In this document: one piece after another, positions 32,109-37,964 of the stretch
How positions within the stretch are numbered: position 1 is the first letter of the stretch
Layout: the number at the start of each line of letters is the position of its first letter
The notes under the pieces: model-generated
Told to the model about the DNA's origin: nothing
Seen by the model: the letters and a program-made list of their open reading frames with translations, nothing else
Database searches by the model: none
Translations under genes and position numbers: made by a program
Source of the DNA: Candidatus Rokuibacteriota bacterium
GTDB lineage: Bacteria; Methylomirabilota; Methylomirabilia; Rokubacteriales; CSP1-6
Direction: 5' to 3'
DNA: 38,029 nt
Assembly: GCA_003220595.1 (NCBI GenBank)
Contig: QHSZ01000024.1
Coordinates: 1 to 38,029 of the forward strand

Positions 32109-33209
32109 ATGCATGCGCAAGCCTTCAAGGTAGGGATGCGGGCTCCCGACGACGTGAGCGCGGCTGCCGAGCTGCTGGATCGGAACGCGTTCCAGGCCGA
32201 TCACGTCGTGGCCGTTCTGGGCAAGACCGAGGGCAACGGGGCCGTCAACGACTACACTCGGGCGCTGGCCACGCTCTCGTTTCAGCACCTCCTGGCCAAG
32301 CGGGGGAGCCGGTCGCTGGAGGCCATCGCCCGGCGGGTGCCCATCATCTGGTCGGGCGGCACGGAAGGCCTCATGAGCCCCCACGCGACGATCTTCACCC
32401 GTGAACCCGACCGCGGGAGGCCGACCGGCCAGAAGCGCTTCGCGGTCGGCACCGCCTACACGCGCGACCTGCTCCCCGAGGAGTTCGGGATCGCGGTCCA
32501 CGCCCAGGTGGCCGCCGAGGGCGTCCGGGCGGCGATCAAGGACGCCGGGATCGCGTCGGCCGAGGACCTGCACTTCATCCAGATCAAGACGGGCGCGCTC
32601 ACCACGGAACGCATCGCCCAGGCGCGGAGCCGGGGCCGGCCGGTGGTGACGACGGACACCTACAAGTCGATGGCCTACGCGCGCGCGGTGGCCGCCCTCG
32701 GCATCGGCGTGGCGACCGGCGAGATCGCCGCGCACACGGTCGTCGACGACGTCATCGGGCGCGATTTCTCGATCGCCTCCAACGTCGCCTCGACGTCGTC
32801 GGGCGTCGAGCTGATGAACTGCGAGGTCATCGTCCTCGGCAACTCGGCCGCGTCCACCAGCGATCTCGTCATCGCTCACGCCGTCATGCGCGACGCCATC
32901 GATGCCGTGGCCGTGCGCGAGGCGCTCCGCCGGGCCGGGCTGGCCGTCGAGTGCGAGCTGGCCGAGCGCGACCGCGAGCGGCTCGTCAACGTCTTCGCCA
33001 AGTGCGAGCCGGACCCATCGGGCGCCACGCGCGGCCGGCGCCACGTGATGTTCGAGGACGGCGACATCAACTACACCCGCCACATCCGGGGGGTCGTCAA
33101 CGCCGTCATCGCCGCGGTGACCGGCGACACCATGTGCTACGTGTCGGCCGGCGCCGAGCACCAGGGACCGCCCGGCGGGGGAGTGGTCGCGGTTCTGGCT
33201 CGCGCCTGA
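32109..33209 (+). CDS. ring-opening amidohydrolase (barbiturase / cyanuric acid hydrolase family)
   Basis: A 366-aa member of the barbiturase/AtzD family, which hydrolytically opens six-membered cyclic amides (barbiturate to ureidomalonate, cyanurate to carboxybiuret). The fold is three repeated units around one active site, each giving a Lys and a Ser. All three pairs are visible: Lys39 in VLGKTEGNG with Ser82 in IIWSGGTEGLMSPHATIF; Lys160 in IQIKTGAL with Ser230/Ser231 in ASTSSGVEL; Lys298 in FAKCEP with Ser346 in YVSAGAEHQGPPGG. The length is normal. GGAGGA lies before the ATG and the Mo-hydroxylase stop is 24 bases upstream. With an oxidising partner, a barbiturase-like role in oxidative pyrimidine breakdown is more likely than cyanurate hydrolysis, but specificity cannot be read from sequence. 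Confidence 0.92.
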   Translation: MHAQAFKVGMRAPDDVSAAAELLDRNAFQADHVVAVLGKTEGNGAVNDYTRALATLSFQHLLAKRGSRSLEAIARRVPIIWSGGTEGLMSPHATIFTREPDRGRPTGQKRFAVGTAYTRDLLPEEFGIAVHAQVAAEGVRAAIKDAGIASAEDLHFIQIKTGALTTERIAQARSRGRPVVTTDTYKSMAYARAVAALGIGVATGEIAAHTVVDDVIGRDFSIASNVASTSSGVELMNCEVIVLGNSAASTSDLVIAHAVMRDAIDAVAVREALRRAGLAVECELAERDRERLVNVFAKCEPDPSGATRGRRHVMFEDGDINYTRHIRGVVNAVIAAVTGDTMCYVSAGAEHQGPPGGGVVAVLARA

Positions 33210-34260: not shown

Positions 34261-35667
34261 TCAGATCTTCCCGGACACGCCGCGCCGCAGGAACTCGCCC
34301 ATGCCTTCCTTGCCGAGCCACTCGGGGCCGTCGACGATCAGCTGGCCGCGCAGGAAGACTCGCTTGACCCGCCCCGTGACCGCACGGCCCTCGAACATCG
34401 TGTAGTCGACCCGACTGTGACCCTCCGCGGATCGGATGGTCCAGGTTTCGTCGGGATCGAACAGGACGATGTCCGCATCCGAGCCGACGGCGATCGTGCC
34501 CTTCCGGGGAAACAGGCCGAAGAGCCGGGCGGGGGCGGTCGAGGTCAGCTCGACGAAGCGGTTCAGCGAGAGCCCCTGCCGCTTGACCCCGCCGTCGAAG
34601 ATCAGCGGCAGGCGCGTCTCCACGCCCGGCGCGCCGTTGGGGATCTTGCTGAAGTCGTTCCGGCCCTGCTGCTTGGAGAACTTCAGACCGTATGGCTGCT
34701 CGTTGAAGCAGAACGGGCAGTGGTCGGTCGAGATCACCTGGAGGTCGTCGGTCTTGAGGCCGCGCCACAGCGCCTCTTGGTGGGCGGGGGTCCGGAGGGG
34801 CGGCGTCATGACGTACTTGGCCCCGTCGAAGCCCGGGCGCTCGTAGTCGGCGGCGGTCAGGAACAGATAGTGTGGGCAGGTCTCGGCATACACCGGGAGC
34901 CCCTGGTCGCGCGCCTGCGTCACGGCCGACAGCGCCTCGGCAGCCGAGAGGTGGACGACGTAGAGGGGCGTGGCGGCAAGTTCCGCCAGCCGGATCGCCC
35001 GGTGGGTGGCCTCGCCTTCCATCGAGGAAGGCCGCGTCAGCGCATGATACTTCGGCGCCGTGTCGCCCCGAGCCACCGCTTCTTCGACCAGCACCTGGAT
35101 GACGGGGCCGTTCTCGGCGTGGACGCAGATCATCGCGCCGCCGGCCGCGGCCACTCGCATGGCCCTGAACAGCGCGCCGTCGTCCACCATCAGCACCCCC
35201 GGATAGGCGGTGAACAGCTTGAAGCTGGTCACGCCTTCCCGGATGAGCGCGGTCATGTCGCCGAGCGTCTCGCGGTTGACGTCGAGGACGATCATGTGGG
35301 CGCCGACGTCGACGCAGGCGCTCTCCGCCCGCCGGCGCCAGTTCTCCAGACCCGGCCGCAGCCGCTCGCCGCGAGTCTGGTTGGCGAAGTCGACCACGGT
35401 CGTGGTGCCGCCGAAGGCCGCCGCCTTCGTCCCCGTACCGAAGGTGTCGACCGTGCGGGCCGCGCCGAAATCCCAATCCAGATGGGTATGCACGTCGACG
35501 CCCCCGGGGAGGACGAGCAGGCCCCGCGCGTCGTACACCTGCGCGTGCTCGGCCGCCGGGAGGTCCTGCCCGATCATGCGCACACGGTCGCCCTCGATGA
35601 GGATGTCGGCGGTGTAGTCGTCGACCGCGGTGACGATCCGGCCGTTCTTGATCAGCGTCGATGCCAT
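34261..35667 (-). CDS. dihydropyrimidinase / D-hydantoinase family cyclic amidohydrolase
   Basis: A 468-aa zinc amidohydrolase that opens cyclic imides and hydantoins. All metal ligands of the binuclear site are present: His60 and His62 in GGVDVHTHLDW, carboxylated Lys150 in TSFKLFTAYPG, His183 in CVHAENG, His239 in VVHLSAAEA and Asp315 in STDHCPFC. Tyr155, which contacts the substrate in hydantoinases, is also present. The start at ATG 35667 is preceded by GGAGG and lies ten bases after the CobW gene; the longer open frame upstream has no matching N-terminus. Dihydropyrimidines, hydantoins or other cyclic ureides are plausible. In this operon it could act on a ring left after reduction, or on a product of the oxidised pathway. 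Confidence 0.92.
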   Translation of the reverse strand: MASTLIKNGRIVTAVDDYTADILIEGDRVRMIGQDLPAAEHAQVYDARGLLVLPGGVDVHTHLDWDFGAARTVDTFGTGTKAAAFGGTTTVVDFANQTRGERLRPGLENWRRRAESACVDVGAHMIVLDVNRETLGDMTALIREGVTSFKLFTAYPGVLMVDDGALFRAMRVAAAGGAMICVHAENGPVIQVLVEEAVARGDTAPKYHALTRPSSMEGEATHRAIRLAELAATPLYVVHLSAAEALSAVTQARDQGLPVYAETCPHYLFLTAADYERPGFDGAKYVMTPPLRTPAHQEALWRGLKTDDLQVISTDHCPFCFNEQPYGLKFSKQQGRNDFSKIPNGAPGVETRLPLIFDGGVKRQGLSLNRFVELTSTAPARLFGLFPRKGTIAVGSDADIVLFDPDETWTIRSAEGHSRVDYTMFEGRAVTGRVKRVFLRGQLIVDGPEWLGKEGMGEFLRRGVSGKI

Positions 35668-35677
35668 CTGGGCCTCC

Positions 35678-36721
35678 TCACGCGACACGCTCGCCGACGG
35701 TAGCCAGCCGGTTGAAGGCGGCGAGCGAGCGTTCGATGACCTGGCGCGGTAGCTTCCGGACGATGAAGACCAGACGCGTGCCGCGGTCCGCCGTGGGCCA
35801 ACCGTCCAGGTGCACGGGCGGATGCACCAGATGCTGGACGCCATGGACGACCACCGGCGTGGGCACGCCGACCACGTGGAGGATTCCCTTCACTCTCAGG
35901 ATATCGTCGCCGTGGGCGTTGAGGAGCATCGTGAGCCAGATGCCGAACGCCGTCCAGTCCAGCGCACGGTCGACGGTCACGCTGAAGGCGTAGACGTCGC
36001 GGTCGTGGGGGCTGACCTGACCGGCGGCCGTCTCCGGCGGCGGCGTGCCCGGCGCCACCCCGAGCCAGCGCCAGGCGTCCTGCCGCGTGCCGGACGGATC
36101 GGCGGGATCGCCGATGAAGAGTTGCTCCGGCCCGATCGGATCGACCGCCGCTTCGAAGATCGGCGCGGCCGGGTTGATGCGGCGGCAGGCGGCTCGGAGC
36201 GCCTCCGCGTGCTCTCGCCCGGTGAGATCGGTCTTCGTCAGGACGACCCGGTCGGCGACGGCCACCTGCTTCACCGACTCGGGGTGCTGGGTCAGATGCG
36301 TCGCGCCGTTGACCGCGTCGACCGTCGTCACCACGTGGCCCACCCGGAAATGGTGCCGCAGCACGGGGTCGGCCATCAGCGTGAAGATGATCGGCGCCGG
36401 GTCCGCGAGCCCCGTCGTCTCGATGGCCAGGCGGTCGAATTTCGGGATTGTCCCCTGCTCGCGCTTGCCGTACAGGTCGCGGACGGCGGCGCTGAGGTCG
36501 TCGCGTAGGGCGCAGCAGACGCATCCGCTCGGCAGCACCACGGTCGTCTCGTCGACGTGGCGTAGCAGCAGATGATCCAGGCCGACCTCGCCGAGCTCGT
36601 TGACCAGCACGGCCGTGTTGGCGAGCTCGGGGGACGCGAGCAGCCGCCGGAGCAGCGTGGTCTTGCCGCTGCCCAGGAAGCCGGTGACGATGTTGACGGG
36701 GATGAGATCGGCGGCAGCCAT
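35678..36721 (-). CDS. CobW/G3E family GTPase, probable zinc metallochaperone
   Basis: A 347-aa G3E-family GTPase (CobW/YjiA/ZNG1 group). The P-loop is GFLGSGKTTL (14-23). The metal-binding CxCC is SGCVCCALRDDL (Cys67, Cys69, Cys70) and the guanine-specificity motif is TKTD in VVLTKTDLTG. Gln/Glu switch residues lie in NELGEVGLDH. The C-terminal CobW domain begins around 255. Members of this group deliver zinc or other metals to client enzymes. Here the clients may be the adjacent hydantoinase, the deacetylase-fold enzyme or the ring-opening enzyme. It lies 14 bases after the 107-aa gene and ten bases before the hydantoinase. A Shine-Dalgarno is not obvious, so coupling to the upstream gene may supply ribosomes. 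Confidence 0.9.
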   Translation of the reverse strand: MAAADLIPVNIVTGFLGSGKTTLLRRLLASPELANTAVLVNELGEVGLDHLLLRHVDETTVVLPSGCVCCALRDDLSAAVRDLYGKREQGTIPKFDRLAIETTGLADPAPIIFTLMADPVLRHHFRVGHVVTTVDAVNGATHLTQHPESVKQVAVADRVVLTKTDLTGREHAEALRAACRRINPAAPIFEAAVDPIGPEQLFIGDPADPSGTRQDAWRWLGVAPGTPPPETAAGQVSPHDRDVYAFSVTVDRALDWTAFGIWLTMLLNAHGDDILRVKGILHVVGVPTPVVVHGVQHLVHPPVHLDGWPTADRGTRLVFIVRKLPRQVIERSLAAFNRLATVGERVA

Positions 36722-36735
36722 AACGGCCGGGCCCG

Positions 36736-37059
36736 CTACTCGTGTTCGACGGCGGCGATCAGCGCGGGATCGAGCGGGTCGCACCGGCGCCGGCTCATCC
36801 GCTCCGCCACCGGCCACAGCGCGGCCAGGTGCTGGACGATCGCCGACCGCCCGGTCCGACTCCGGAGGACGAAGCAGGCGCCGTCCCAGTCGGCGAGCAT
36901 CAGGCCGTAATGCTTGAGCACCTTGTTGGCCAGCCTCACGCGGTGCAGCCGCTCCTGCCGCCGGGTCGATCCCACGGGCGGCACGCCGGACGGGCGATCC
37001 GGCCCGGCGGCATCGGTCCAGTGCGCCTCCGATCCGAGCACCCCGCACAATCCGCACAT
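36736..37059 (-). CDS. unrecognised 107-aa protein with N-terminal CGLC motif
   Basis: A small protein starting MCGLCGVLGSEAHWTD. It continues with an Arg/Lys-rich stretch (about 33-50), a YGLMLADWDGACFVLRSRTG segment and a closing helix with LAALWPVAERM and DPLDPALIAAV. Cysteines are at 2, 5, 62 and 93. The N-terminus resembles the MCGI opening of class II glutamine amidotransferases, but nothing else of that domain is present. A CxxC plus two further cysteines could form a metal site, which fits its place between the deacetylase-fold gene and the CobW GTPase. GGAG precedes the ATG, and spacings of 23 and 14 bases to its neighbours support a real, co-transcribed gene. I do not recognise the family with certainty; a metal-binding partner of the CobW protein is my guess. 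Confidence 0.6.
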   Translation of the reverse strand: MCGLCGVLGSEAHWTDAAGPDRPSGVPPVGSTRRQERLHRVRLANKVLKHYGLMLADWDGACFVLRSRTGRSAIVQHLAALWPVAERMSRRRCDPLDPALIAAVEHE

Positions 37060-37082: not shown

Positions 37083-37964
37083 TCACTTCGGGCGCCGGCT
37101 CCGCCTGGCGAAATCGTCGGCGATCTCGTCGAACGTCGCGAAGCGCACGCCCGGATGCCGGATGATGTGACCGTACAACCGCTCGAGCATCATCAGCACC
37201 TGCGGGCGACCGGAAACGTCTGGATGGATGGTCATCGGGAACACCGCATAGTCGTACTCGCGATAGACCCAGTCGAACTGGTCCCGCCAGATCTGCTCGA
37301 TGTCGTGGGGGTTGACGAAGCCGTGACTGTTCGGCGCCGCCTTGATGAACATCATCGGCGGCAGGTCGTCCAGGTACCAGCTGGCCGGGATCTCGATCAG
37401 CTCCGTCTCCCGCCCGCGCACCAGCGGCTTCATCCACGCGCTCGGAGGCTTGGCGTAGTCGATCTTGGTCCAGCTGTCCCCGACGCGGACGAAGTGCGGC
37501 TGGAAGTCGTGGTGCATCAGGCTGTGGTCGTACTTGAAGCCCCGCTTCAGCAGGAGCTCGTTGGTCACCGGGCTGAACTCCCACCAGGGCGCGACGTACC
37601 CGGCGGGGCGGTGGCCGGTCAGCTTTTGCGCCAGCTCGATGCACTTGTCGAGGACCGTCTCCTCCTGCTCGCGCGTCATCGCGATCGGGTTCTCGTGCGA
37701 GTAGCCGTGGATGCCGATCTCGTGCCCGGCGTCCACGACCATCCGGATCTGCTGCGGAAAGGTCTCCATCGAGTGGCCCGGGACGAACCAGGTGGTCTTG
37801 ATGCCGAAGCGTTCGAACAGCTTCACCAGCCGGGGCGTGCCGACTTCCCCCGAGAACATGCCGCGCGAGATGTCGAGCGGAGAGTCCTCGCCGCCGTAGG
37901 ACCCGAGCCAGCCCGCCACTGCATCCACATCGACGCCGAATGCGCACAGGATTTCCTTAGCCAT
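37083..37964 (-). CDS. polysaccharide deacetylase-fold protein, PuuE-like amidohydrolase
   Basis: A 293-aa NodB-homology-domain protein. Motif 1 is FGVDVDA (Asp12, Asp14) and motif 2 is [12 protein letters not shown] (His86, His90), with [15 protein letters not shown] between them. Motif 3 follows near [11 protein letters not shown], and the C-terminus has [16 protein letters not shown]. The HGYSH form is closer to the cofactor-independent allantoinase PuuE group and its relatives than to peptidoglycan deacetylases, and there is no signal peptide, so a cytoplasmic amide-hydrolysing role is likely. GGGAGA lies six bases before the ATG. It is the first gene of the minus-strand run with the 107-aa, CobW, hydantoinase and cyclodeaminase-family genes. 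Hydrolysis of a cyclic or linear ureide is inferred from context. Confidence 0.85.

Follow-up and report, generated by a model that had tools for sequence, protein, structure and literature searches.

A conserved small CxxC protein encoded beside a CobW GTPase and an imidase is a candidate client-specific metal co-chaperone

Introduction

In a Candidatus Rokuibacteriota genome (contig QHSZ01000024.1; the whole 38,029-nt stretch that we analysed is called the window), a gene for a protein of 107 amino acids, here called CGLC, lies between a polysaccharide deacetylase-fold enzyme and a CobW GTPase, and the question that this locus raises is what such a small protein does between two such partners. 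A CxCC metal site is found in COG0523 proteins, whose clients are mostly unknown, and two sources treat the client and the metal of most of these GTPases as an open question (PMC2770081, PMC9164220). The genes of the window that bear on the question are as follows.

37083..37964, minus strand: cyclic-imide-hydrolase-like enzyme with a polysaccharide deacetylase fold, 293 aa, the probable client (below, the imidase)
36736..37059, minus strand: CGLC protein, 107 aa, of a family without characterisation, with an N-terminal MCxxCG-(x6)-HW and a C-terminal DPL motif
37045..37059, minus strand: CGLC codons 1-5 (MCGLC), the invariant N-terminal CxxC that follows straight after the start at 61 of 61 loci
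35678..36721, minus strand: COG0523/CobW GTPase, 347 aa, with a GSGKT P-loop, a GCVCC metal motif and a CobW_C domain
34261..35667, minus strand: D-hydantoinase/dihydropyrimidinase (TIGR02033) of the same operon, for cyclic amide hydrolysis
32109-33209, plus strand: AtzD/TrzD ring-opening amidohydrolase of the cyanuric acid hydrolase/barbiturase family (PF09663, 460 bits)

Gene prediction and family distribution

The CGLC ORF (MCGLCGVLGSEAHWTDAAGPDRPSGVPPVGSTRRQERLHRVRLANKVLKHYGLMLADWDGACFVLRSRTGRSAIVQHLAALWPVAERMSRRRCDPLDPALIAAVEHE; 107 codons, minus strand) opens with MCGLCG and encodes cysteines at positions 2, 5, 62 and 93. Its start lies 23 nt from the stop of the deacetylase-fold gene and its stop 14 nt from the CobW start, which bears out the tight placement described in the initial annotation, and the gap between CobW and the D-hydantoinase is 10 nt. 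Judged by its sequence, the ORF is a real gene and not a chance reading frame, since homologues were found in seven relatives among the related genomes (identity of 85% to 44%), dN/dS against the three nearest relatives was 0.32, 0.42 and 0.32, and third-position changes were in excess in the comparison with the nearest relatives.

A homologue was also found in an alphaproteobacterial MAG, and 70 plasmid records gave matches, with hosts including Rhizobium, Shinella, Ensifer, Thioclava, Paraburkholderia, Klebsiella, Pantoea, Halomonas, Rubrobacter and others. Of 385 genomes from the class around the alphaproteobacterial MAG, 23 carried CGLC, as did 10 of 398 from the phylum of that MAG, and no relatives were found on the viral contigs searched. 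We studied 61 loci from several bacterial groups and counted conservation on 48 non-redundant sequences; one weak match (L009) was dropped because it lacks the CxxC. The earlier statement that the protein has no known domain held, as the window CGLC gave no match in Pfam or NCBIfam, neither of which has a model for the family, and none among PDB sequences, while 27 of its relatives gave scattered sub-threshold matches only in Pfam and NCBIfam. Public records carry these proteins as 'hypothetical protein' or without annotation. On these comparisons, CGLC is a widespread and conserved bacterial family that has never been named; no paper describing the CGLC-CobW-imidase gene set was found in the literature covered, which was partial, and an earlier mention is possible.

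Invariant residues, start codon and predicted fold

C2, C5, W14, G70, W82, D94, P95 and L96 are invariant in the 48 non-redundant sequences, R37 and L48 are kept in 47, and H13 and N45 in 44. Among the four cysteines counted in the initial annotation, Cys2 and Cys5 thus stood, whereas Cys62 (1/48) and Cys93 (20/48) are not conserved, and a four-cysteine metal site was rejected on this ground. The middle residues of the CxxC vary (GL, SL, SA, AN, GV). Four sequences have Q, Y or R in place of H13, which leaves C2 and C5 alone as safe ligand candidates.

The start codon was taken immediately before Cys2 at all 61 loci (57 ATG, 3 GTG and 1 ATC), and many of these frames offer no other start upstream. 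Methionine aminopeptidase can remove the initiator methionine when a cysteine occupies position 2, and mature CGLC therefore probably begins with Cys. The ATC replaces ATG in a close relative (L005, 1501-1821, minus strand) with only two open codons upstream, and represents a weak start, decay or an assembly error. Two AlphaFold runs from a two-sequence input gave mean pLDDT values of 68 and 63; of the structure prediction proposed earlier for the protein alone, a shared helix near residues 31-51 stood, together with an undefined N-terminus, but the remaining fold differed between runs. A Foldseek search of the PDB with the first model returned no match.

Pairing with a CobW GTPase

The window CobW matches PF02492 (153 bits) and PF07683 (82 bits), with GSGKT at position 17 and GCVCC at position 66, and GCxCC is found in 49 of 50 CGLC-linked CobWs. 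The initial annotation asked whether homologues adjoin CobW, and they almost always do: a CobW gene follows CGLC on the same strand at 59 of the 61 loci, usually overlapping it (median gap of -1 nt), and at L059 it lies ~0.7 kb further downstream. The two loci without a nearby CobW (L047 and L049) are second copies with an imidase present, and both genomes have another CGLC copy with CobW. In rearranged operons (Klebsiella, Pantoea, Paraburkholderia aromaticivorans, Mesorhizobium) CGLC and CobW are together, with the imidase 3-5 kb off.

The linked GTPases also stand apart from other CobWs. In a tree, a branch with 100/97 support divided them from nine other CobWs of the same class, and the 21 top-scoring CobWs of the 385 genomes all adjoin CGLC, with a few diverged linked CobWs scoring lower; by sequence, the CGLC-linked CobWs appear to be a separable GTPase subfamily. 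A diverged CGLC branch (MCSACGFPAAPGHWTEAG...) was seen at L018, L019, L020 and L064 with an equally diverged CobW branch, and from these parallel branches the pairing appears old. Pairwise CGLC distances correlate with those of CobW (r of 0.77, partial 0.70) and less with those of the imidase (0.45, partial 0.14), a pattern that favours CGLC-CobW contact but may reflect similar divergence rates alone. The gene pairing of a small metallochaperone partner, with a G3E GTPase and with a client, was found for CGLC.

Identity of the imidase and its co-occurrence with CGLC

The closest solved relative of the window imidase is HP0310 of H. pylori (3qbu; 509 bits over 292 residues), and its metal and catalytic residues, D12, D14, H86, H90 and H247, are kept at the positions they have in HP0310. 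HP0310 is inactive on polysaccharides and is thought to bind a small molecule; it forms a tetramer whose active site is buried (PMC3084791). HxnM, a fungal relative, acts on a cyclic imide by opening its ring and shares 64% identity with a cyclic imide hydrolase of P. putida, and by analogy with these homologues the window enzyme would likewise hydrolyse cyclic imides (PMC9304392). The 'polysaccharide deacetylase' genes beside CGLC and CobW, in the window and at L010-L029, are most likely ring-opening imide hydrolases, which would make this a widespread misannotation.

An imidase was present in the first stretch examined at 54 of the 61 CGLC loci and at four more on extension. In the 385 genomes (imidase threshold of E below 1e-60), 21 had an imidase and all 21 of these had CGLC (Fisher p about 1e-32, which is a guide only as shared ancestry is ignored); of the two CGLC genomes outside the 21, one has a diverged adjacent imidase, and in the other the locus sits on a short contig. 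Copy numbers match, with two-imidase genomes carrying two CGLC. In the window's phylum, CGLC occurred in 7 genomes, the imidase in 8 and both in 7 (p about 8e-10, again a guide that ignores ancestry). One genome of this phylum with an imidase and no CGLC (G031) had no CobW on its 11.4-kb contig, and plasmid imidases without CGLC (Rhodococcus erythropolis R138, Rouxiella, Variovorax, Halocatena) showed no CobW in the surrounding 6 kb where the records cover that distance. Since imidase loci that lack CGLC also lack CobW, the two appear to be gained or lost as a unit and the enzyme can stand alone; its occurrence in other lineages with neither gene indicates that the pair is not needed for catalysis itself. 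In Paraburkholderia largidicola (L017; AP028203.1, 8001-9340), CGLC and CobW occur with an annotated allantoinase, and no imidase was found within 8 kb, so that the pair may serve another client there.

The AtzD/TrzD gene of the window has the hydantoinase and an ornithine-cyclodeaminase-like gene close by, which gives the region the look of a cluster for cyclic imide/ureide degradation. Many CGLC operons also contain an amidase or asparaginase, two SDRs and a transporter, and in some cases a hydantoinase. Together, the relatives of the imidase, the operon partners and the AtzD/TrzD gene point to cyclic imide or amide catabolism. One imidase-CGLC-CobW operon (L014; NZ_CP147633.1, 2753-10543) has an amidase, SDRs and an MFS transporter, and operons of this type are carried by Klebsiella pneumoniae plasmids, including those of clinical isolates, with IS elements close by.

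A candidate metal co-chaperone and its alternatives

We thus observed a family with invariant residues and a fixed start that is linked to CobW and the imidase, co-occurs with the imidase and is absent together with CobW. Three features suggest a client-specific metal co-chaperone: the pairing with CobW, the almost 1:1 correspondence with the imidase, and the invariant CxxC with its usual His13. With a probability of roughly 0.6, CGLC is a dedicated co-chaperone, or client adaptor, of one COG0523/CobW subfamily that metal-loads the imidase. A more specific version, which we put forward tentatively, is a COG0523 helper whose exposed C2, C5 and H13 form a metal hook that shuttles between CobW and client, as a counterpart of the HypA/HypB and UreE/UreG systems. 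For CGLC we infer metal binding, physical contacts, a direction of transfer and the identity of the metal. The initiator Met would be removed, and the N-terminal Cys, Cys5 and usually His13 would form the hook; CGLC would take a divalent metal from the GCxCC site of CobW, or present one to it, and would dock on the apo cyclic imide hydrolase encoded next door, whose Asp-His-His site would be loaded upon GTP hydrolysis by CobW. The metal-site partner or adaptor suggested in the initial annotation is partly supported overall, with strong support for its linkage (CobW at 59/61 loci, imidase with CGLC in 21/21 genomes of one class).

An unlikely alternative, though one that deserves weighing, is that CGLC serves the imidase as an accessory or regulatory subunit (a stabiliser, lid or substrate channel) and that CobW merely metallates one partner. 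The copy number of CGLC tracks that of the imidase, the second CGLC/imidase pairs of two genomes (L047 and L049) have no nearby CobW and would fit such a subunit equally well, and the buried active site of the HP0310 tetramer (PMC3084791) is consistent with it. Gene order and divergence, however, track CobW more than the imidase, like operons without CGLC and CobW in Rhodococcus and others argue that the enzyme stands alone, and HP0310 and HxnM are described without a subunit of this kind (PMC3084791, PMC9304392).

The link to CobW is the strongest that CGLC has (adjacency, joint absence, correlated divergence), and a protein interface is suggested by W82 and DPL, which are invariant and distant from the CxxC. 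Both would also be expected if CGLC regulated the GTPase cycle of CobW, as an exchange or activating factor or as a metal sensor, with no metal handed on; we consider this improbable, because the match of CGLC to imidase copy number would be left unexplained. It is very improbable that the CxxC, despite its variable middle residues, is a thioredoxin-like redox (disulfide) site that protects or activates the enzyme: the site of the imidase family is made of Asp and His and not of Cys (PMC3084791), the CxxC stands at the extreme N-terminus ahead of a stretch modelled with low confidence, and CGLC has no thioredoxin match. The resemblance to class II glutamine amidotransferases raised in the initial annotation did not survive, and a small enzyme of this type with Cys2 as N-terminal nucleophile can practically be dismissed, as the MCG(I/L) start shared with AsnB, GlmS and PurF and the invariant Cys2 straight after the start codon are followed by nothing alike past 8 residues (hhalign, 8 columns, 0.4% probability; no Pfam or PDB match), the protein has only 107 aa, the second Cys is invariant, and NGEIYN and HRGPD are absent.

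Discussion

The co-chaperone reading places CGLC beside known systems. HypB and UreG are G3E GTPases that work with the small metal-handling partners HypA and UreE, and the likeness to CGLC would be that of a small metal-handling partner and a G3E-family GTPase that metallate one enzyme (PMC9164220). CGLC, which starts MCxxC, nevertheless has no sequence match to HypA or UreE, and its GTPase belongs to COG0523, for which no such small partner is named in the literature covered. Identity with HypA was rejected: PF01155 was unmatched by the window CGLC (E up to 1) and by 27 relatives, a HypA family search in relatives gave sub-threshold matches only, and there was no PDB match. Nha3, the nitrile hydratase activator, is likewise a COG0523 GTPase for one metalloenzyme, in nitrile/amide metabolism, but it acts directly on the alpha subunit of the enzyme, with no CGLC-like protein mentioned (PMC9164220). 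ZNG1, another GTPase of COG0523, is dedicated to a single metallohydrolase client, MetAP1 (PMC10642216); direct delivery to the client has been proposed for it, whereas the CGLC system has a separate small protein. HP0310 (HpPgdA), the P. putida YZ-26 cyclic imide hydrolase and HxnM correspond to the window imidase, which shares the metal residues of HP0310, but were characterised without a CGLC or CobW partner.

The operon provides a probable COG0523 client in the cyclic imide hydrolase and a GTPase subfamily that can be told apart from the rest, and it adds CGLC as a small third component that the domain databases searched do not contain. It also corrects a common annotation, as these enzymes, recorded as "polysaccharide deacetylases", are most likely hydrolases that open imide rings. 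Because plasmids of culturable Rhizobium and other bacteria carry the operon, and it occurs in nature both with and without the GTPase and CGLC, its role is directly testable. Found almost always beside one kind of CobW and an imidase, CGLC is probably the missing helper that lets the CobW GTPase service the imidase.
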